A stretch of 25,992 nucleotides of DNA from a virus, in the IMG/VR virus record IMGVR_UViG_3300011261_000105, positions 1 to 25,992 of that record. One strand, given 5' to 3'. Positions within the stretch are counted from its first letter, which is position 1. Each line of letters begins with the position of its first letter. Shown here in pieces: positions 1,708 through 25,860 of the stretch. The notes below the pieces were generated by a model. That model saw nothing but the letters and a program-made list of their open reading frames with translations. It did no database searches and was not told the DNA's origin. The position numbers and the translations under genes were made by a program.

Positions 1708-2843
1708 ATCAAATCAACCCACGGCCCATAATTTGCCCATGCCGGAATAGATAATTCCTTTGCGCATGGTTCATATGCTGTATTGTACTTGCTTGATTCG
1801 TGTTCTGCAACCTTTTGTTTTGCATAAGCGCGTTTTTTTCGTCCCATTTCCATGAATTCTTCATCTGGAATGAATACGTTTACTGCATATGGCGCTTCGG
1901 TTTCAATTGCAATGAATGGGAATGAAATTATCTCATCTCCTGCATCATTTGCCACTTGCTCATAGTGCGCAGCTTGTAAATCATAATGCAAACGGCTTGC
2001 TTGTTTAATAAAACCCTCCTCGCTTGCATCATTCGTTGATTTTAAATCAAGACCAATGTACTTATCAATAGCCTTAAATCTAGCATCAAATCGACATTTG
2101 TCATTTTCAGTAAATACACTAACCTCAGTTTCTAAAACGTCAGGCGTGATGAATGCGTAGTATAACCACTGCATAATAGCGCCATTATCATTTGCTTTTT
2201 CATATTCAGCACATGCTTTCAAATGCTCGATCAATGATTTATACATATCATCGTATTTTTTATATTCTTCATACGGTAGCACTTTAAAGCCGCTACCTAC
2301 GCTCTCAGCGTGCGCACGCACTAACGCAGGAAAGTATTCGCCATTCCATCCAGCGTCTCGCATACGCTCGTACAAATCAATAGAGCTACCACTCAGTGCA
2401 ATAATGCCACGGTTCGGCTGTTCGTTGATGTGTTTGATCTGATTTTTAATATCTGTAGCTGATAAACATGATACATCGACACCTGATAAATGGTCTGGGT
2501 CGTCCCTGCCTAGCTCAGCGAGTAATGCGTCTTTTGATCCTGTTGTTTTTAATTTCGGCTTTCGTGACTCATTGAATTTCTTTGCTTCTGCCTTCAAATA
2601 TTCAGCCGTAAAGATAGCATCCGGATAATCTTCAGGATTTAGACCCTGAATATATGTGCGCTCGAATACATCGCGCTCAAGAATAAATTCATGCACGCGA
2701 AGCCCAGTTTCCATTGCTTTAGTTTTCTTGCGCGGTGTCAAAGCGTGCTTAACTGATTTTAAGCACGACTTGAGAAAGGATGCAGAATGACCTTGTTTCG
2801 CTCGGTATTCTTCGTTTGATAGTCCGTGTATGATGTTAGTCAT
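1695..2843 (-). CDS. RecE-like exonuclease, PD-(D/E)XK fold
   Basis: A 382-residue protein matching phage RecE/exodeoxyribonuclease VIII C-terminal domains. Visible motifs: G-x-x-x-H in GLRVHEFIL (His about 51), an acidic residue in LETEVSV (about 240), the metal-binding Asp in KCRFDARF (about 253), D-x-K in IGLDLKST (about 266-268) and Q-x-x-x-Y in QAAHY (about 290-294). These are the catalytic elements of a 5'-3' double-strand exonuclease that leaves 3' overhangs for an annealing partner, here the RecT-like protein downstream. The ATG at 2843 was chosen for its GGAGG site; 14 further codons lie upstream without one. It overlaps the upstream gene by 8 bp. Confidence 0.88.
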   Translation of the reverse strand: MTNIIHGLSNEEYRAKQGHSASFLKSCLKSVKHALTPRKKTKAMETGLRVHEFILERDVFERTYIQGLNPEDYPDAIFTAEYLKAEAKKFNESRKPKLKTTGSKDALLAELGRDDPDHLSGVDVSCLSATDIKNQIKHINEQPNRGIIALSGSSIDLYERMRDAGWNGEYFPALVRAHAESVGSGFKVLPYEEYKKYDDMYKSLIEHLKACAEYEKANDNGAIMQWLYYAFITPDVLETEVSVFTENDKCRFDARFKAIDKYIGLDLKSTNDASEEGFIKQASRLHYDLQAAHYEQVANDAGDEIISFPFIAIETEAPYAVNVFIPDEEFMEMGRKKRAYAKQKVAEHESSKYNTAYEPCAKELSIPAWANYGPWVDLMWII

Positions 2844-4659: not shown

Positions 4660-6423
4660 ATGACAACACCAAAGCTAAGAACATATCAAGAAAACCTGAA
4701 AGACGGTATTTACGAATCCATAAAAAAACAGCATAAAGGTATCGTTGCTGTTAGCCCTACTGGTTCGGGAAAGTCAAAAACTATGGGTTCCATGTGCTGT
4801 GATTTTATCGGTAATGGAAAACAAGTTGTATTTGTTGTGCATCGCCAAGAGCTGGTTAAACAGCTCTCAATCATGCTAGGAGAATATCAGCTACCTCATC
4901 AAATCATAGCGGCCAAACATACGATTAACGAATCAAAAATGGAGCATTTCCAGAACTTCGGACAATCGTATTTAAACCCGTTTGCTGATAATATTTATGT
5001 GTGCTCGGTTCAAACGCTTGCGTCAATGATTAAGAAAAATAACTGTACGTTAAAACCTGACGTTATATTCTTTGATGAAGGCCACCACGTAAGCGAGGGA
5101 TCGCTTTGGGGCGTAGTTCGTGAAGCGTTCGACAAATCTATAGCGTTGAAGTTTACTGCGTCACCTGAGCGATTAGATGGAAAGGGTTTAGGCGTTGGTC
5201 ATGGAGGGTATGCAACTGATATTGTAGTTGGCCCTTATGTCGATGATTTAATAGACGGCGGATATTTATCTGACTATATTGCTATTGTTCCTAGTGAACC
5301 GATAAACGTAACTGGATTAAGAGAAAGCAAAACCGGAGGAATGGCAGCGAAAGCGGCTAATGAGTTTTTTCAATCGAAAGGCGAGAAAGTTTGTGCTGAT
5401 TTACTGAAGCACTATTCTAAACATACGCCTCATAAACCAATGGTAGCCTATGCTGTAAATGTTAAAGCATCCGAGGGCATGGCCGATCAGTTCCGTAGTG
5501 CTGGATTTAATGCGGTAGCGATTAATGGCAACACTAAACAGTCTATTCGCAACAAGGCGCTTAAGGGTCTTGAAAACGGCGATATTGAAGTCGTATGTAA
5601 CGCTGATTTAATATCTGAGGGGTTTGACGTTCCAAACCTTGCGGCGGTCGGGTTGTGCCGACCAACCCAAAGCCTTGGATTGCACATTCAGCAAGTTGGA
5701 CGCCCTCTAAGGCCCCATGCTAGCAAAAAAGCCGCTTACATATACGATTGCGTAGGAAACATACAAAACCTTGAGCACTTCCCCTGTACGCGCCGTGAGT
5801 GGAGTTTAGAGGGCAAGAAAGGTCGCAAGAAAGAAGGCGACAAACACACCGAGAAAATCCGCAAATGCCCGTCATGTTTTGCAGAGTTCAGATATAAAAC
5901 CGTCCGTGACGCTTGCCCGTCATGCGGATATGTAACAACGCCAGAGGAAAATCAGTTATTCATTAAAGAAATTGAAATGAAGCAGATCACGCCTGAAGAG
6001 CTAAAGGAAATGCGTGATCTGCAAAGGGCAGAAACAAAACAAGCGCAGAATGCAGGCATTAGGAATGCTAAAACAGATCAAGAACTTGTACTGCTGGATA
6101 AAAAACTAGGTTTAAAACGTGGCGCTAGTGCGCATAAGCAGCGTGCAATAGAAGAAAAGAAAAAAGCTATGTCTCGATTAAATACTGCGATAAACTACTA
6201 TAAACAAAACGTGGCATGGGGAAGCCCTGAAGTGTTCGACCGTATTATGAATGACGTGTTCGAGGTTAGCGAGAAAGACGCTAGGAAATATGGCGCTGTT
6301 CGTGCTAACAGGTTGTGCGATACAATGCGTGAGTTTTTGGAGTTGCGAAACAGTCAGATTGAAGAACCGTATAGCTCGATTAACTATAAAATGAGTATGT
6401 TTAATGATATTGGTGGGTTTTAG
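4660..6423 (+). CDS. superfamily 2 DEAD/DEAH-type helicase with zinc ribbon
   Basis: A 587-residue phage helicase related to type III restriction/RadD-like enzymes. It starts MTTPKLRTYQ (Q-motif-like), then Walker A SPTGSGKSK (about 32-40), DEGH (139-142), motif III TASPERLDGKG (166-176), a helicase C domain with ISEGFDVPN (318-326) and QQVGRPLRP (344-352), and two CPSC pairs (403-406, 419-422) forming a zinc ribbon before a charged coiled-coil-like tail. It should use ATP to move on or remodel DNA. An in-frame ATG at 4642 exists, but a GGAGTG site favours 4660. The C-terminal domain may bind partners or DNA. Confidence 0.85.
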   Translation: MTTPKLRTYQENLKDGIYESIKKQHKGIVAVSPTGSGKSKTMGSMCCDFIGNGKQVVFVVHRQELVKQLSIMLGEYQLPHQIIAAKHTINESKMEHFQNFGQSYLNPFADNIYVCSVQTLASMIKKNNCTLKPDVIFFDEGHHVSEGSLWGVVREAFDKSIALKFTASPERLDGKGLGVGHGGYATDIVVGPYVDDLIDGGYLSDYIAIVPSEPINVTGLRESKTGGMAAKAANEFFQSKGEKVCADLLKHYSKHTPHKPMVAYAVNVKASEGMADQFRSAGFNAVAINGNTKQSIRNKALKGLENGDIEVVCNADLISEGFDVPNLAAVGLCRPTQSLGLHIQQVGRPLRPHASKKAAYIYDCVGNIQNLEHFPCTRREWSLEGKKGRKKEGDKHTEKIRKCPSCFAEFRYKTVRDACPSCGYVTTPEENQLFIKEIEMKQITPEELKEMRDLQRAETKQAQNAGIRNAKTDQELVLLDKKLGLKRGASAHKQRAIEEKKKAMSRLNTAINYYKQNVAWGSPEVFDRIMNDVFEVSEKDARKYGAVRANRLCDTMREFLELRNSQIEEPYSSINYKMSMFNDIGGF

Positions 6424-6452
6424 TTGATATTTTTTATTTAGTATGGTAATGT
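6424..6452 (+). promoter_or_regulatory. promoter candidate ahead of first cassette-like unit
   Basis: TTGATA and TAATGT with 17 bp between them begin immediately after the helicase stop codon. The element is very similar to the one at 10151-10179 ahead of the main cassette array, so both cassette regions may have a dedicated upstream promoter. Confidence 0.45.
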
Positions 6453-6472
6453 TTACGTCATAGGTAAATACA

Positions 6473-6508
6473 TATAACAACGAGCAGTCGGATGATTGCT
6501 TTGTTATA
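6473..6508 (+). other. short attC-like inverted repeat
   Basis: TATAACAA (6473-6480) and TTGTTATA (6501-6508) are perfect complements around an inner hairpin (AGCA/TGCT and TC/GA with one mismatch). At 36 bp it is shorter than known attC sites, but its right half (6486-6509) is nearly the same as the lone right half site at 10702-10725. An 11-bp direct repeat, CATAGGTAAAT, lies on both sides (6459-6469 and 6512-6522); the second copy supplies the ribosome site of the next gene. Confidence 0.5.
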
Positions 6509-6525
6509 AACCATAGGTAAATTTT

Positions 6526-6720
6526 ATGAAATGGATAGACTCAGAAGAGGAAATTAAACCACTTGTTGGACGTATAGTTCTTGCTTATTGTCCTAAGTGG
6601 TGTGATAGCGGATACCAAGTGTGCTATTTGGATGGCAAGGTATTTAGATACGACGAACAACCTAATGATGAATTTCATTCTTATGTGAATGAGTGGTCGA
6701 TATTTTTAGATGCTTACTAG
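6526..6720 (+). CDS. DUF551-like small protein in cassette-like unit
   Basis: A 64-residue acidic protein with KWIDSEEEIKPLVGRIVLAY near the start and VNEWSIFLDAY at the end, resembling the W...P..G..VL...V..W pattern of DUF551 proteins. The ATG at 6526 follows AGGTAAA. It lies between the short attC-like repeat (6473-6508) and a full attC-like site (6725-6791), so it reads as a gene cassette. Its relative at 999-1196 is in the phage leftward operon, which suggests cassette genes and phage genes come from the same pool. Function unknown. Confidence 0.55.
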   Translation: MKWIDSEEEIKPLVGRIVLAYCPKWCDSGYQVCYLDGKVFRYDEQPNDEFHSYVNEWSIFLDAY

Positions 6721-6724
6721 GCTT

Positions 6725-6791
6725 ATAACCCTAAGTTAATTAGCAGGAATGAGCTCAGCGTATGACTGTCGAATTGAACGCGTTGTTATAT
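6725..6791 (+). other. attC-like recombination site
   Basis: It starts ATAAC (6725-6729) five bases after a stop codon and ends GTTATAT (6785-6791). Inner arms GTT-AATT-x-G-CAG (about 6735-6746) and CTG-x-C-x-AATT-x-AAC (about 6766-6779) pair with single bases bulging from the right arm, the pattern seen in integron attC sites. The start codon of the next ORF (6762) lies inside it. Confidence 0.65.
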
Positions 6792-6980
6792 GGCGATTTT
6801 ACACCTAGTCAGCGAGATATAGATTTGTATGAACGTCTGGAATTGTATTACCGGCAAACGACAGACGAAATGGATAACAGGAAGGCTATGAGCTACTGGA
6901 AGGAGTTTAAGAGATGGTGTGCGGATCGTGGATACACACAAGAAGAGATTAACCGAGCTAAACGCAATGTGCGAATTTAG
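6762..6980 (+). CDS. hypothetical cassette-like protein (72 aa)
   Basis: Unrecognised. The first residues, MTVELNALLYG, are encoded by the right half of the attC-like site, and the distinctive body follows: DFTPSQRDIDLYERLELYY then a helical, charged C-terminus with FKRWCADRGYTQEEI. No strong ribosome site is seen, and no later ATG keeps the body intact, so an attC-encoded start is plausible. The frame ends TAG directly before CCATATAAC, a lone attC left half. Function unknown. Confidence 0.5.
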   Translation: MTVELNALLYGDFTPSQRDIDLYERLELYYRQTTDEMDNRKAMSYWKEFKRWCADRGYTQEEINRAKRNVRI

Positions 6981-6990
6981 CCATATAACA
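6981..6990 (+). other. lone attC left-half remnant
   Basis: CCATATAACA follows the stop codon of the preceding ORF exactly as at 11540 and 12791, where complete sites follow. Here no matching GTTAT right half occurs within the next 150 bases. It may mark the broken right edge of the first cassette-like unit. Confidence 0.35.
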
Positions 6991-10150: not shown

Positions 10151-10213
10151 TTGACTTACATTTAAAATAGTAGTAATCTATCCCCTTATTGATATATTCG
10201 TAAGGGGTTTTTT
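10151..10213 (+). promoter_or_regulatory. promoter-terminator-RBS module 1
   Basis: TTGACT (10151-10156) and TAATCT (10174-10179) are 17 bp apart. Directly after come CCCCTTA (10182-10188), a 12-base loop, TAAGGGG (10201-10207) and six T residues (10208-10213), a textbook intrinsic terminator for the PhoH transcript. The AAGGGG arm is also placed as a Shine-Dalgarno for the ATG at 10214. The same layout recurs at 19385-19416 and 20647-20708. Confidence 0.65.
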
Positions 10214-10240: not shown

Positions 10241-10692
10241 ACTCAACATTCGGGCCGCTTGACACTCTCAGAAAAGCATGGGAATCTAATGATAAAGACG
10301 GTATTCAATCAGCACTTGACAATTATTTCCATGCGTTGAATACTGATTACTACAACAACGAAGGAAAATTCTCAGCCGCGCATGATAATGTAATTAGGTT
10401 CTTGTATGGGCGCATTGATTCAGGTATTATTTGTGATGAAATCGGATGCAATATGCATCAGCTAGAATCGCGTGCAAAACAGCTAGGAAAGCCTACAGCT
10501 GGAGTTGCATTAACTGAAGATCATGTATTAGCGGTTATGCGAATGACTGAACGAGGCGCTTCTGATAAACAGATTGAGGATGTGTTGGGTTTTGGCATTA
10601 GCGAAAATAGCTACACTGCATCAAGCGTTGAGATTAATAACATGAATGATGCAGTTAGACAGTTTGGAAAACAGGGCGTTTTGGGGATTTGA
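10237..10692 (+). CDS. hypothetical phage protein with HTH-like middle
   Basis: A 151-residue protein of unknown function. The first part is helical (MNSTFGPLDTLRKAWESN; NYFHALNTDYY), and the region RGASDKQIEDVLGFGISENS reads like a helix-turn-helix of the resolvase/sigma type, preceded by a similar GRIDSGIICDEIGCNMHQL. Two HTH-like segments suggest a DNA-binding regulator, which is inference. It has a strong CGGAGG site. It ends TGA immediately before the lone attC right half at 10702, so it is the last phage gene before the cassette array. Confidence 0.5.
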   Translation: MNSTFGPLDTLRKAWESNDKDGIQSALDNYFHALNTDYYNNEGKFSAAHDNVIRFLYGRIDSGIICDEIGCNMHQLESRAKQLGKPTAGVALTEDHVLAVMRMTERGASDKQIEDVLGFGISENSYTASSVEINNMNDAVRQFGKQGVLGI

Positions 10693-10701
10693 TTGTTGGA
10701 A

Positions 10702-10725
10702 GTCGGATTGATTGCTTTGTTATAA
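10702..10725 (+). other. attC right-half site at the left edge of the cassette array
   Basis: The sequence from AGTCGG to GTTATAA matches the right half of the short site at 6486-6509, with one extra base. No ATAAC left half is found between it and the preceding stop codon. It may mark where the array joined the phage genome. Confidence 0.45.
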
Positions 10726-10747
10726 CGTAAACACAGGAAATAAAGAC

Positions 10748-10942
10748 ATGAAAGAGAAAGTTATCTTAGGCGTAATAGCTGTAGTGGTAGTAATTGGTTT
10801 AATTCTTGGAGGAAAGTATGTGCTAAGATTTTTTAACGCTGCAACTTTGCACACGCAGATAATTACACCAAAGGCAGGTGTGGAGTGTGTTGTTGTAAGT
10901 GCGTCAGACTCGACCTCTGTTGATTGCTGGAAGGCGTTATAA
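10748..10942 (+). CDS. cassette 1: small membrane-anchored protein
   Basis: A 64-residue protein. Residues about 5-23 form a hydrophobic helix (VILGVIAVVVVIGLILGG), an uncleaved anchor or signal peptide, followed by a polar domain with ITPKAGVECVVVSASDSTSV and a final DCWKAL. The two cysteines (EC and DC) could form a disulfide in the periplasm. The ATG at 10748 follows AGGAAA. Its stop codon TAA lies inside the ATAAC box of the following attC-like site. Function unknown. Confidence 0.6.
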   Translation: MKEKVILGVIAVVVVIGLILGGKYVLRFFNAATLHTQIITPKAGVECVVVSASDSTSVDCWKAL

Positions 10943-11016
10943 CCTAGAGGTAAAACGCGATGACTGAGCGAGTAGAACGAGCGAAAGAAGAGTCGGATTT
11001 GACCGAATTGTTATGT
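10939..11016 (+). other. attC-like site 1
   Basis: ATAAC (10939-10943) overlaps the stop of cassette 1 and GTTATGT (11010-11016) closes the site. Inner arms pair partly (GGT..AAA and ACT with AGT..TTTGACC). The left arm contains GAGG nine bases before the ATG at 10960, so this site supplies both ribosome site and start codon to the next cassette ORF. Confidence 0.65.
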
Positions 11017-11220
11017 GTTGCGCGGACAGTTGATTTGCCTGATTGGGCAACACATGTAGCTGTTAGAAATGACGGTAGCAAGGCAGAGCCAGCAGCATGG
11101 ATAGAAAGATCAAAAGATTACTTGGATGAAGACCCTTCCCAGCTTGGCGAACACTGTTGGGCTGGTAGCTATAAACATTACTACTGGACGTTTATAGAAC
11201 GAGCGCAATTAAACACATAA
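10960..11220 (+). CDS. cassette 2: protein with PDWATH motif
   Basis: An 86-residue protein. The first 20 or so residues (MTERVERAKEESDLTELLCV) are encoded by the attC-like site; the body follows with LPDWATHVAVRNDG, AAWIERSKDYLDE and a C-terminal HCWAGSYKHYYWTFIER. The P-x-W-A-T-H-x-A..W pattern resembles the APDNATH and GATHYSES repeats in the phage protein at 24685, which points to a phage-type origin. An internal start just before LPDWATH cannot be excluded. The stop TAA is part of the next ATAAC box. Confidence 0.55.
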   Translation: MTERVERAKEESDLTELLCVARTVDLPDWATHVAVRNDGSKAEPAAWIERSKDYLDEDPSQLGEHCWAGSYKHYYWTFIERAQLNT

Positions 11221-11280
11221 CCACGCGCTAATTTGAGCGAGTGAAACGAGATTCAGAATTAAGCGCCTTGTTATTTGGCG
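11213..11280 (+). repeat. 68-bp perfect direct repeat (copy 1; copy 2 at 12189-12256)
   Basis: The two copies are identical across the entire attC-like site and diverge at the next base (C versus T). The ORFs on both sides of each copy are unrelated, so the duplicated unit is the recombination site itself. Confidence 0.9.
11217..11276 (+). other. attC-like site 2
   Basis: ATAAC (11217-11221) and GTTAT (11270-11274) are the outer boxes. Inner arms 11225-11236 and 11253-11266 pair as GCGCT/AGCGC, AATT/AATT and TGA/TCA, leaving G11256 and A11261 unpaired on one arm only. A 16-base spacer forms the loop. Bulged bases confined to one strand are the classic signal that orients integrase on a folded attC. 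Confidence 0.75.
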
Positions 11281-11294
11281 CGGGAGAGATAGCA

Positions 11295-11546
11295 GTGAAT
11301 ACAGACTCTACTTTTCGTGAGATTGTCGTGAGCCAGGGCGGTTTGACTCGCCGCCAAAAAGCGGAGCTTGAGAATAGATACATTCGCGAGTGCAAGGGTT
11401 GCACAGGTTCTGAATGCGACTCGTGCGGTGGCTCTGGAGTTCGCAAGAAGTGCGATTCTCGGCAGTGCCTAGAGCATGGTTGCGGCGGTTACGGCAATTG
11501 CGAAGTGACTAGTCGAGAAATTACTGAGCTGTTAGCGACCATATAA
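11295..11546 (+). CDS. cassette 3: cysteine-rich zinc-finger-like protein
   Basis: About 83 residues. The centre is cysteine-dense: ECKGCTGSECDSCGGSG, then KKCDSRQCLEHGCGGYGNCE, resembling a DnaJ-type CxxCxGxG zinc domain with about ten cysteines. The GTG at 11295 is preferred because a GGGAGAGA site lies just upstream; a longer form starting at a GTG inside attC site 2 (11241) would add an attC-encoded leader (MKRDSELSALLFG). The final residues, EITELLATI, run into the next ATAAC box. Likely metal-binding; partner unknown. Confidence 0.6.
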   Translation: MNTDSTFREIVVSQGGLTRRQKAELENRYIRECKGCTGSECDSCGGSGVRKKCDSRQCLEHGCGGYGNCEVTSREITELLATI

Positions 11547-11601
11547 CCCACGGCTTAGCCGATGGAGTGGAACGACAGTCGGATATAGCCGATTGTTATG
11601 T
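11543..11601 (+). other. attC-like site 3
   Basis: ATAAC (11543-11547) overlaps the stop of cassette 3; GTTATGT ends the site (11595-11601). Inner arms 11551-11562 and 11579-11591 pair as CGGCT/AGCCG, TA/TA and CCGA/TCGG with T11586 extrahelical and one mismatch (11558 with 11583). Confidence 0.7.
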
Positions 11602-11622
11602 GTGAATTATGGGATTGATGAA

Positions 11623-11877
11623 ATGATACCGAAAGATAATGATACCCCTGTTGAAACTTATGAAAAAGAATACTTCGGATGCAAAGTTAAGGTTTGGAGG
11701 ATTAAGGGTCCATACTGGGGGAGCCACCCATGGAGGTTTTGCATAACTCACAATGGAAAAACTCACAATTTTACGGGGGTGCCAAATTACTGCATTTCAA
11801 AGATGCAGGCTCTTAAGCGTGCTTGGTGGAGATCTAGGTGGCTCGATAGCGGCGAGTGGGATAAACACTACACATAA
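11623..11877 (+). CDS. cassette 4: hypothetical aromatic-rich protein
   Basis: About 84 residues from the ATG at 11623 (a TTG at 11593 inside the attC site would add ten). It is rich in tryptophan and tyrosine: VKVWRIKGPYWGSHPWRF, then THNFTGVPNYCISKMQALKR and WWRSRWLDSGEW. The alternating pattern suggests a small beta-rich protein with a basic, aromatic surface. No family recognised. The stop codon is inside the next attC-like site. Confidence 0.55.
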   Translation: MIPKDNDTPVETYEKEYFGCKVKVWRIKGPYWGSHPWRFCITHNGKTHNFTGVPNYCISKMQALKRAWWRSRWLDSGEWDKHYT

Positions 11878-11954
11878 CCTAAGCCACAGATGCAAATAAC
11901 GCATTTGTGAGCGAATCGAGCTGTTATTTGTCTTTTGATGGCAGTAGTTATGTG
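11871..11954 (+). other. attC-like site 4, nested
   Basis: Two sets of boxes are nested. The outer pair is CACATAAC (11871-11878) with GTTATGTG (11947-11954), the inner pair CAAATAAC (11893-11900) with GTTATTTG (11923-11930); both are perfect complements. A separate hairpin, CACAGATGC with GCATTTGTG, spans 11885-11909 and competes with the inner pair. It may be one long site with a structured spacer, or one attC inserted into another. Confidence 0.6.
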
Positions 11955-11978
11955 ACGATAATTAAATGAGAAATAAAA

Positions 11979-12188
11979 ATGAATTTAGAATTAGAGCGTA
12001 AATGTAAAAAATGCAATGATACTGGCTGGTTGTGTGGCTGTGATTTAACGAAACCTTGGGAGGGCGCTGGTAATTGTGGGTGCGGAGAATCAGGAAAGAA
12101 TTGTATTTGCAATAAAAATGGAGATTTCGGCACTGACTACAAAATCACGCATTCAATAAATAAAGATGAAATCACAGCGATACACTAG
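11979..12188 (+). CDS. cassette 5: cysteine-rich zinc-ribbon-like protein
   Basis: A 69-residue protein with nine cysteines, seven of them in the clusters RKCKKCNDTGWLCGCD and GNCGCGESGKNCIC, followed by a polar tail ending KDEITAIH. The CxxCxGxG-like spacing resembles cassette 3 although the sequences differ, so two of seven cassettes encode small cysteine-rich metal-binding-type proteins. The ATG at 11979 lies in an A-rich stretch without a clear ribosome site. It ends TAG just before attC-like site 5. Confidence 0.6.
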   Translation: MNLELERKCKKCNDTGWLCGCDLTKPWEGAGNCGCGESGKNCICNKNGDFGTDYKITHSINKDEITAIH

Positions 12189-12192
12189 ACAC

Positions 12193-12252
12193 ATAACCAC
12201 GCGCTAATTTGAGCGAGTGAAACGAGATTCAGAATTAAGCGCCTTGTTATTT
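12193..12252 (+). other. attC-like site 5 (identical to site 2)
   Basis: It has the same sequence and fold as the site at 11217-11276, inside the 68-bp repeat 12189-12256. Here the attC-encoded frame from the GTG at 12217 reads MKRDSELSALLFGVGR and then stops, just before the ATG of cassette 6 at 12270. Confidence 0.75.
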
Positions 12253-12269
12253 GGCGTGGGTAGGTAGAA

Positions 12270-12551
12270 ATGGAAGCTGTTTATGAATTGTCTTTTCTTG
12301 ATTTTGACGACAATTATTTTGCTATAGGGCTTTTCAAGAGCCTTGGAGAAGCAAATCAGTTTGTAGATTCAGCGATTGAAAGTGGCGATCAGCTTGCTTG
12401 GGATGTTGAAGATAACGAACGCCTTCAGATAGTTAAGTATCAATTTGGGAAGGGCGATAATCTCCGCATAATTGTTCGCACTATAACCCGTACTCCAATC
12501 TATATCGAAGACGAAGATGACTATACGCTAAAGGTTGTAAGTGACAAATAA
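12270..12551 (+). CDS. cassette 6: hypothetical acidic protein
   Basis: A 93-residue acidic protein, MEAVYELSFLDFDDNYFAIG, then a helix (SLGEANQFVDSAIESGDQLAW) and beta strands (LRIIVRTITRTPIYI). The layout looks like a small alpha/beta domain. The ribosome site is GGTAGGT just before the ATG at 12270, in the base run that follows the attC-like site. The stop TAA is part of the ATAAC box of the next site. No function recognised. Confidence 0.6.
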   Translation: MEAVYELSFLDFDDNYFAIGLFKSLGEANQFVDSAIESGDQLAWDVEDNERLQIVKYQFGKGDNLRIIVRTITRTPIYIEDEDDYTLKVVSDK

Positions 12552-12609
12552 CCCCAGCGGTAATTTGAACGAGCACCGCGAGTGTCAGAATTTAACGCCG
12601 TTGTTATAT
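12548..12609 (+). other. attC-like site 6
   Basis: ATAAC at 12548-12552, GTTATAT at 12603-12609. Inner arms pair as TGA/TCA and AATT/AATT with G12588 unpaired, then GCG with CGC less perfectly. Spacer and arms are close relatives of sites 2 and 5. Confidence 0.65.
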
Positions 12610-12630
12610 GGCAGATACAGGAGAAGAAGA

Positions 12631-12798
12631 ATGGATTATATGATTATTGTAGGTCTTGAATACGCGATATATTCAAAGATACTTAAATGTGAAAGAAGTG
12701 GCCAGAATTTAATATTTAATAATATAGAAGAGGCAGAAAAGAAAGCAGATGAAATAAGAAAAGCAGCTGGCAGTAATGTTAGGGTTGTAGCCATATAA
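12631..12798 (+). CDS. cassette 7: hypothetical small protein (55 aa)
   Basis: A small protein, MDYMIIVGLEYAIYSKILKC, then an acidic helix (IEEAEKKADEIRKAAGSN) and a final VRVVAI strand: a plausible beta-alpha-beta mini-fold. The start at 12631 is set by an AGGAGAAG site about 6 bases upstream. The frame is open back through the attC-like site, which would add NLTPLLYG and more, but the strong site argues for the short form. The stop TAA lies in the next ATAAC box. Confidence 0.6.
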   Translation: MDYMIIVGLEYAIYSKILKCERSGQNLIFNNIEEAEKKADEIRKAAGSNVRVVAI

Positions 12799-12853
12799 CA
12801 AGTAGTTCAACGACAGCGAGTTACGAGTCTGTTCGATGAACGTAGTGTTATGA
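12795..12853 (+). other. attC-like site 7, right end of the array
   Basis: ATAAC (12795-12799), GTTATGA (12847-12853). Arms 12803-12816 and 12829-12844 pair as TA/TA, GTTCA/TGAAC, CGA/TCG and CAG/CTG, leaving G12842 and T12832 unpaired on the right arm and one A-A mismatch. This is one of the cleanest attC-like folds in the window. Confidence 0.75.
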
Positions 12854-12870
12854 ATTAAATGGGATAAATT

Positions 12871-13059
12871 ATGAAAACTTTAGATGATTACGCAATTTCT
12901 GCGATGCAGGGACTTCTTTCAAGTGACGTTTCAGTGTGGGGTACGGTTGAAGAATACGCAGAATGTGCATACGACATGGCAGAAGCAATGATTAAAGAAT
13001 CACGCAAGCGCATAGAATCACAAGAACAACGACACACAGTAGAAACAACAGAGGATTGA
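12871..13059 (+). CDS. hypothetical phage protein (62 aa)
   Basis: A helical protein, MKTLDDYAISAMQGLLSSDV, with ECAYDMAEAMIKESRKR near the end, a pattern common in small phage proteins (Y-x-x-A-x-A-M). It sits between the last attC-like site and the clamp gene and has no attC-like site of its own after it, so I take it as a phage gene rather than a cassette. The TGA stop at 13057-13059 lies just before the clamp start and may couple the two. Confidence 0.5.
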   Translation: MKTLDDYAISAMQGLLSSDVSVWGTVEEYAECAYDMAEAMIKESRKRIESQEQRHTVETTED

Positions 13060-13061
13060 AA

Positions 13062-13484
13062 ATGAAATTTACAGTAACTCAGCATGATTTGAGCAATGCA
13101 ATGCAGTTCGTTGCTAGTGCGATTGAACGAAAATCAACGATGGATATTATGACTAACGTGTTGATCACAACTGACATGTATAGTATTACGTTGTCAGGTA
13201 CTAATACAGAAGTTGAAAAACGTATTACAATCACTGCGAAGGTTGATGAACAAGGCAGTATCACCGTTCCGGCGGCAAAGTTATCTGATTTTGCTAAAAA
13301 CGCAGATAAAGACAAAGACATTAAATTCACGTTAAAAGACACGAAAGGTATCATTAATTCCGGTAAATCTCGATGGAGCTTATCAACACTATCGGCCGAT
13401 ATTTATCCTGAATTCATGAGCGTTGAAGAATCACAATCGCTATCAGTTGAAATCACAAAACTAATAGATGCAATTTCACGCTGA
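13062..13484 (+). CDS. dnaN: DNA polymerase III beta sliding clamp, N-terminal part
   Basis: 140 residues from MKFTVTQHDLSNAMQFVASA, with IMTNVLITTD (compare ILxNVLLxxx in DnaN), ITVPAAKLSDFAK and a YPEF motif, matching domain I of the bacterial beta clamp. The ATG at 13062 has a GAGG site. Translation meets an in-frame TGA (13482-13484) right after LIDAISR, close to the boundary between domains I and II. The same frame carries the rest of the clamp (13485-14141). The clamp rings DNA and tethers polymerase and repair proteins. Readthrough, a split two-chain clamp or a mutation are all possible. Confidence 0.82.
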   Translation: MKFTVTQHDLSNAMQFVASAIERKSTMDIMTNVLITTDMYSITLSGTNTEVEKRITITAKVDEQGSITVPAAKLSDFAKNADKDKDIKFTLKDTKGIINSGKSRWSLSTLSADIYPEFMSVEESQSLSVEITKLIDAISR

Positions 13485-13493
13485 TCAACAACA

Positions 13494-14141
13494 ATGGCTC
13501 AAAAAGACGTACGTTATTATTTAAACGGCATGTTATTTGATGTTAAAGACGGCAAATTAACTGTTGTAGCAACTGACGGACACCGTTTAAGCTGTTATTC
13601 TATGGATACAGATGCAGAATTTGAACGGCAGGCTATTATTCCGCGCTCTGCTGTATTAGACATCCTGAAAATGATCACTAAAGCACCGGACGCTAAGATT
13701 ATTATAGGTCGCGATAATGTCAAAGTAACTGTTGGCAACATGGTTATGTATACAAAACTAATCGACGGAAAATTCACAGATTACAAACGTGTAATTCCGA
13801 GCGACTTAACTATCAATGCTGATATGAATACTGAAGAGTTGCGCAATTCTGTAAAGCGTACATTGCCGCTATCTAACCAATATTTTGCTACTGAGTTTGT
13901 TTTTAATGACGGACAGTTGACGATCAACGCAACTAACACTAACCAAGAAAAAGCCGTTGAAGAAATACCAGTATCAAAATCAGGCGATGACATTTCAATC
14001 GGGTTTAATGGTATGTACGTATCTGATTTGTTAGGTTCAATCGACAGTGAAAATGTAGTGTTTCAAATGAAAAACTCAGCATCAAGCGCATTAGTTGAAG
14101 ATGGTGATTTCATCGGCGTTCTTATGCCGTTGAGAATCTGA
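13494..14141 (+). CDS. dnaN: DNA polymerase III beta sliding clamp, C-terminal part
   Basis: 215 residues from MAQKDVRYYLNGMLFD, with VVATDGHRLSCYSM (DnaN hallmark TDGHRL), KLIDGKFTDYKRVIP (compare KLVDGRFPDYRRVLP in E. coli) and a final MPLRI. This covers domains II and III, including the peptide-binding pocket region. It is in the same frame as the N-terminal part; only the TGA at 13482 separates them. The ATG at 13494 has no Shine-Dalgarno sequence, so production needs reinitiation or UGA readthrough. Together the parts are about 360 residues, normal for DnaN. Confidence 0.85.
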   Translation: MAQKDVRYYLNGMLFDVKDGKLTVVATDGHRLSCYSMDTDAEFERQAIIPRSAVLDILKMITKAPDAKIIIGRDNVKVTVGNMVMYTKLIDGKFTDYKRVIPSDLTINADMNTEELRNSVKRTLPLSNQYFATEFVFNDGQLTINATNTNQEKAVEEIPVSKSGDDISIGFNGMYVSDLLGSIDSENVVFQMKNSASSALVEDGDFIGVLMPLRI

Positions 14142-20708: not shown

Positions 20709-21071
20709 ATGAGTATTGAGATTGAGATGAATAGTGTTACAGTTACATTTAATGATCCTAACGACATTTTAGAACTAATGGATGATAAAGATAAGATTGA
20801 TTTGATTGAATCACTATCATGCTATAACGAAGTTATAAAACACGTAGCAGATCAGCTTGTATTCGGATGCACTAAAAATGGTAGTCATGGTTGGATTTCT
20901 AGTGGTTGGAATAAGAATCACGGATCAGCTTTAGAAAAAGCCAGAAATGAAATAGCAAAAAGCGCAAGCGGACAAGCAAAGGAGAGAATAGAATATCTTG
21001 AGCATGAGCTTAGTAAAAAATGCAAACTAATAGAAGAACTTGAAGATAAGGTTTATGAAAATCAACGATAA
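20709..21071 (+). CDS. hypothetical phage protein with coiled coil
   Basis: 120 residues. The N-terminus is acidic with a VTVTFNDPNDILELMDD segment; the middle is polar (GSHGWISSGWNKNHGSALEK); the C-terminal third (about 90-120) is a heptad-like helix (ERIEYLEHELSKKCKLIEEL). This pattern is common in uncharacterised phage proteins. AGGGGA from the module upstream is its ribosome site. It precedes the SNF2 helicase by about 20 bp and shares its promoter. Confidence 0.5.
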   Translation: MSIEIEMNSVTVTFNDPNDILELMDDKDKIDLIESLSCYNEVIKHVADQLVFGCTKNGSHGWISSGWNKNHGSALEKARNEIAKSASGQAKERIEYLEHELSKKCKLIEELEDKVYENQR

Positions 21072-25383: not shown

Positions 25384-25860
25384 ATGAGACTAGATAAACA
25401 CCTAAAAACAGTGTATGAATTTCGGAAGGCAACGGGCTTGCCTACATGTTCATTACATGATTGCGAGTATGAAACGCATCGACAGGTTACGCTTGAGGAG
25501 ATCATAGAAGCCGCTGATGGAGTAACAGATTCAATCGTTACACTAGCAGGTATTGCGCTAGATGCAGAGCCTAGGCGCTCAAGTATGGCTACGTCAGTTA
25601 TTGAGCGTATTGATAATGCAATGACTCATATCGGGTTTAAACCTGATGCGTGCATGAAAATCGTGCATGACGCTAATATGTCTAAGCTATGCAAGCCTGA
25701 CGAAGTTGAGAAAACGATTGATTATTACAACAGTATCGGCGTATCGTGCGATACAGAGGTTATGAACGGCGAGCTAGTTGCTGTATACTGTAAAGAAGAC
25801 ACAACAGATAAACACGGAAAATTCTACCCAGCGAAAAAACTGCTAAAATGTATCAACTGA
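25384..25860 (+). CDS. MazG-like / phosphoribosyl-ATP-pyrophosphohydrolase-family protein
   Basis: 158 residues: an EFRKATGLP start, then VTLEEIIEAADGVTDSIVTL (E-E-x-x-E..D-x-x-x-D metal motif, here EEIIEAADGVTD) and the family's downstream hallmark IVHDANMSKLCKPD. These enzymes hydrolyse nucleotide triphosphates and related molecules in phage nucleotide metabolism or ppGpp control. The ATG at 25384 has a GGAG site. The frame ends TGA (25858-25860) after LLKCIN, but the same frame stays open to the window end with protein-like sequence (HEPKWSELAYWQDSDIAELF), so the true end may lie beyond the window by readthrough. Confidence 0.65.
   Translation: MRLDKHLKTVYEFRKATGLPTCSLHDCEYETHRQVTLEEIIEAADGVTDSIVTLAGIALDAEPRRSSMATSVIERIDNAMTHIGFKPDACMKIVHDANMSKLCKPDEVEKTIDYYNSIGVSCDTEVMNGELVAVYCKEDTTDKHGKFYPAKKLLKCIN

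Follow-up and report, generated by a model that had tools for sequence, protein, structure and literature searches.

In a viral record of 25,992 bases (the window, meaning the whole stretch of DNA that was analysed), the region directly following the helicase gene is, with good probability, composed of two inserted integron-type cassettes, mini attC plus ORF1 and full attC plus ORF2, together with a target half-box (6474–6989). In the same reading, the main array at 10701–12851 constitutes a second, larger insertion point, and both loci would have received their cassettes from an integrase acting in trans, with the attC in front of the gene. The direct evidence comes from the types of attC site, the pairing of cassette ends, the polarity of the bulged bases, the breakpoints at the left box and the different loci that one cassette occupies in sister phages. 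The record is probably a virus fragment and encodes a primase, a helicase, a PhoH-like protein, a thymidylate synthase and a minor capsid protein.

A sequence-only reading of positions 6424–6990 had described a mini site, a full attC-like site, a lone left half and two small ORFs. All of these parts are present, although the lone half lies at 6980–6989, one base to the left of the 6981–6990 originally given. The one full and two partial sites are now best read as two cassettes of reversed polarity. The features are as follows.

Stop codon at 6423: helicase gene, directly preceding the small locus
6474–6507, plus strand: mini site, 34 nt, from ATAAC (6474–6478) to GTTAT (6503–6507), 5' of ORF1
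6526–6720, plus strand: ORF1, 64 aa, cassette gene
6725–6789, plus strand: full attC site, with a right-box extension to 6794 and bulged bases on the right arm
6762–6980, plus strand: ORF2, 72 aa, cassette gene, with its start codon within the full attC site
6980–6989, plus strand: lone left box GCCATATAAC, complementary at 10/10 positions to GTTATATGGC at 6785–6794
10701–10725, plus strand: left edge of the main array, where the mini-site attC type is present as its right half only
10939–12851, plus strand: main cassette array, seven attC with small ORFs in between
10939–11014, 11217–11274, 11543–11599, 11874–11927, 12193–12250, 12548–12607 and 12795–12851: attC of the main array

The seven main-array sites display R''/R' boxes (TAAC ... 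GTTA) and imperfectly paired arms within the range of ~55–140 nt, as does the full site at 6725–6789; the 34-nt mini site and both half sites, taken alone, do not. With two or more attC close together and no intI, the main array forms a CALIN, while the small locus alone includes only one full attC site. No match to PF00589 was found in the 25,992-base record, which is probably only a fragment of a phage genome. The lone left box is best read as the right end of the ORF2 cassette, that is, the half of the crossover that lies at the target.

The attC type at the left of both loci

A pattern scan of viral contigs with the half-site returned a single record, G001 (IMGVR_UViG_3300029263_001577), in which positions 34326–34383 form an intact 58-bp attC whose right half matches both the mini site and the edge of the main array. 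The mini site (6474–6507) is 97% identical to G001 34353–34386 over 34 nt, and the array edge (10701–10725) is 100% identical to G001 34361–34385 over 25 nt. The mini site equals the 58-bp attC of G001 minus 23 nt between ATAAC and AACGAG and minus one T, and is best read as the deletion-damaged attC of ORF1; it is probably inactive or weak.

The resemblance between the right half of the mini site and the left edge of the main array, which had been noticed by inspection, was confirmed by alignment. The two agree in 24 of 25 bases with one gap, and their local score is 43, whereas none of 5000 dinucleotide-shuffled pairs scored above 27; no comparable second match to the mini-site right half occurs elsewhere in the window. 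The left edge was considered as an attI and rejected, because an intact attC type has this very sequence as its right half, which makes truncation the simpler account. An array of phage G378 also begins with a truncated copy of the mini-type right half, and several arrays begin with truncated or intact copies of the mini-type attC.

An 11-base direct repeat, CATAGGTAAAT, is located on either side of the mini site (6459–6469 and 6512–6522), and is perhaps connected with the mini-site deletion or with insertion. Within the main array, the attC at 11210–11284 and 12186–12260 are near-identical over 75 bases, and one of them is the same as a site of phage G007 over 71 bases. An RBS-like stretch and the start codon of the following ORF lie inside some attC (G006 2219–2294, minus strand; window 10939–11014). 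The start codon is within the attC in the case of ORF2, and perhaps also of the ORF at 10960. Beyond the array, the sliding clamp (DnaN-like) frame at 13056–14141 is split by an in-frame TGA at 13482–13484, the two halves being otherwise in the same frame.

The two loci had been taken as pieces of one system preceded by a common promoter. They do represent one kind of system with one pool of attC, but the promoter found no support. Matches to TTGA..-N17-TAAT.T number 2 in the window, where chance alone would give 0.73; the second, at 10151, is positioned before the preceding gene and not at the array edge, and sigma-70-type scans of both regions revealed no excess over shuffles. A shared promoter ahead of both loci was rejected on these grounds.

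Cassette ends and polarity

In a circular integron cassette, both ends of the unit together form the R box, and the ends should therefore be complementary. Over 27 units from the window, G001, G006 and G007, the outer bases gave 135 matches, compared with 85±6 when the ends were permuted, while the two ends of a single attC in situ paired at background in the phage units. The window units alone gave p=0.00075 for end pairing, and the ends of the ORF2 cassette pair at 10/10 positions. The corresponding values for 58 units of bacterial integrons were 5.07 per unit, 2.52 when permuted and 2.97 in situ. The complementary ends of integron attC cassettes are thus found in the phage units, and because they pair as in bacterial integrons, these units, both of those in the small locus included, behave as integron cassettes.

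The double prime in the base names T12'' and G20'' denotes the R''/L'' side of the site. The attC of bacterial integrons follows its ORF on the 3' side, and in the folded bottom strand the extrahelical bases are T12'' and G20'' (PMC3053210). As controls we used 73 sites from 12 gammaproteobacterial arrays oriented from intI, in which the extra bases are on the left arm in 65/73 sites and on the right arm in 5/73, and the ORFs run with the array 47:6. The phage set comprised 29 non-redundant sites oriented by their ORFs, of which 27 were informative. Here the extra bases are more numerous on the right arm in 21/27 sites and on the left arm in 6/27 (p=0.006), sites within related phages being not fully independent. 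Extrahelical bases on the R''/L'' arm combined with an attC 3' of the ORF are, consequently, not the pattern of the phage sites. These polarity analyses were devised after the sequences had been seen, and part of the site lists was chosen by eye.

The breakpoints of shared cassettes provide a second line of evidence. Homologous ORF ends run into different attC sites, and the break falls directly after TAAC, with identities at these breakpoints of 0.62–0.97 to the left and 0.23–0.38 to the right; the set of left-box breakpoints includes ORF1 of the window compared with the viral contig G003. For attC of the same type, the sequence after the site is common and the sequence before it is not. Two shared cassettes retain just the right half of the upstream attC, which counts against the model, as do the six phage sites with the opposite bulge polarity. 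Because shared cassettes break at the left box and the bulges are on the opposite arm, the attC appears to travel before its ORF, and the polarity looks reversed with respect to bacterial integrons, with the attC 5' of its ORF. The argument is drawn mostly from other phages, as neither helicase nor PhoH led to a close relative of the window phage in the collections searched. The simplest model is a moving unit of attC, leader and ORF with the crossover at the left box. With such a unit the small locus needs no missing site, and consists of two cassettes and a target half-box.

Under ordinary polarity, with the attC 3' of the ORF, the small locus would instead be a piece of a broken array, incomplete at both ends. 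ORF1 and the full site would form a complete cassette, ORF2 would have lost its attC save the lone half, the mini site would be the remnant of an earlier cassette, and the piece would have entered by homologous or illegitimate recombination rather than through an integrase. Incomplete outer sites are expected of a fragment, the pairing of cassette ends is compatible with either polarity, and homologous or illegitimate recombination has been suggested for phage arrays (Qi et al. 2023, PMC9892861). The left-box breakpoints, the side of the bulges relative to the controls and the association of each attC type with the sequence that follows it nevertheless make this account unlikely, as does the 10/10 pairing of the lone half with the right box of the full site.

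Cassettes at several loci and in unrelated phages

Phages G001, G006, G007 and G378 have no protein in common with the window except translated attC. Only the attC types are shared, at ~80–100% identity, with 71 identical bases in the case of G007. G001 and G007 are sisters; most of their aligned blocks have 94–99% identity, and one has 83%. Each of the two has two cassette loci, with differing contents. One cassette is found, together with its upstream attC, at locus I in G001 and at locus II in G007, and another is common to G007 and the otherwise unrelated G006. In these phages, which are outside the window's lineage, cassettes are transferred whole, and the breaks lie at the R box. Most of the arrays seen close on the right with one and the same attC type, which may represent a fixed platform or the array end.

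Right-end attC type: window 12795–12851; G001 25730–25787; G007 10439–10495 and 20794–20851; G006 1712–1769; G378 27545–27602 and 31600–31657

These data bear on the earlier proposal that the two loci are either two entry points or a split array. At least two separate arrays are present in each of G001, G007 and G378, which, together with the cassette at different loci in the sisters, favours several insertion points over one split array. A single ancestral array, divided into two loci by rearrangement or by the insertion of phage genes, would account for the same attC type beginning both. Yet ~3.7 kb of other phage genes separate the loci, and the lone half at 6980–6989, considered as a remnant of the terminal attC of the main array, shows no significant resemblance to it. 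In light of the separate arrays and the relocated cassette in the other phages, we regard a split as quite improbable.

The sites could also be intergenic hairpin repeats, regulatory or terminator-like, copied between phage genes, and not integron sites at all. Ahead of ORF1, the 34 nt of the mini site form a good hairpin, and a simple box-plus-arm scan, too weak as the sole detector, fails by itself to separate most sites from shuffles. Such repeats are hardly credible as an explanation of the cassette-end pairing, the breakpoints at the boxes, the several site types and the relocation of cassettes, and no terminator-like site is present at the small locus. Insertion of attC-first cassettes at several points is the reading retained below.

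Relatives of ORF1 with 54–75% identity occur in the viral contigs G003, G004 and G005, and the copy in G005 sits among attC-like sites. In G003 (L024, 4780–5680), a different short repeat, TAACGCAGCGTTTAACGACAACGTGAGG, and its variants precede several small ORFs, the ORF1 relative included; this repeat is possibly another cassette-like site. A relative of ORF2 (46–47%) is located between the tail genes of Vibrio phage K198 and its kin, and no attC near it was visible by eye in the Vibrio phages. Neither ORF has a significant Pfam match, and the PHROG matches are weak. The match of one of four aligned ORF1 relatives to the Thoeris anti-defence protein Tad4 falls short of significance (E=0.16) and is a lead only. 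A structure model of ORF1 was discarded (pLDDT 48.6).

Proposed mechanism and relation to known systems

From this evidence we infer an integrase, its action on the window phage, the strand it uses and the expression of the cassette genes. The integron integrase, which belongs to the tyrosine recombinases and folds a single strand of attC into a hairpin, would be supplied in trans by the host or by another element. Its substrate would be the ORF-sense strand and its point of action ATAA/C, so that each attC travels together with the gene on its 3' side, and the single-stranded attC hairpins may be recombined while the phage replicates. Cassettes would enter existing attC or stray box-like targets, so that one genome comes to have several loci. 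At either locus, the attC farthest to the left would have decayed afterwards, the mini site by its 23-nt deletion and the site at the main array by losing its left half. The cassette genes are presumably transcribed from phage promoters.

An integron integrase scoring above the curated cut-off is present in 57/143 sampled gammaproteobacterial genomes, which makes a host source plausible if the host belongs to Gammaproteobacteria. The commonest attC type is absent from 369 gammaproteobacterial genomes, which counts against the proposal, as does the lack of an integrase in the record; the IntI-adjacent regions taken as controls gave no hit to a source integron either. Matches to source-integron patterns in genome contigs were rejected as chance-like, and no empty insertion target was found in the collections searched.

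Integron cassettes and CALINs have been described in virulent and temperate phages, and IntI1 recombined 5/6 of the phage sites tested (Qi et al. 2023, PMC9892861). The present loci share with these phage CALINs the combination of attC with small ORFs in a phage genome that lacks an integron integrase, but differ in that two or more arrays are found per genome, instead of mostly one per phage, and in that attC types are common to unrelated phages. TJE1 and PH101 have same-direction cassettes of typical structure (PMC9892861), in contrast to the apparently reversed polarity here; the one TJE1 site that we checked has its extra bases on the left arm, as in bacterial sites. With bacterial integron cassettes, the phage units share R boxes, bulged hairpin arms and end complementarity of the same strength, whereas their attC appears to be 5' of the ORF and the record includes neither intI nor attI. 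Integrase-mediated insertion of cassettes at non-attI genomic sites, or attG insertion, is described in bacterial genomes. Like attG insertions (the term is from PMC12901181), the phage loci hold cassettes singly or in short runs at dispersed positions, and only one end bears a box-like remnant; they differ in belonging to a phage and not to a bacterial genome. While integron cassettes in phages are already known (PMC9892861), the apparent reversed polarity looks new; no description of it, or of cassette exchange between unrelated phages, was found in the open-licence literature searched.

Gene exchange between unrelated viruses appears to run through a gene-capture system of bacterial type whose orientation is unusual. 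We tentatively suggest, as a possibility that falls somewhat short of even chances, that unrelated phages share a reversed-polarity cassette pool of their own. The attC would be a movable 5' module with hairpin, leader and sometimes start codon, inserted several times per genome by an integrase in trans. If true, this would amount to a phage-adapted integron economy, distinct from bacterial arrays. Reversed polarity, if true, would mean that the mRNA-sense strand is the recombining strand as well, and that the attC is able to evolve as a 5' untranslated region. The rapid turnover of phage accessory genes is mostly labelled 'mosaicism'; here a defined site-specific route is visible, and it bears on whether phages make use of host integron integrases to shuffle small genes.
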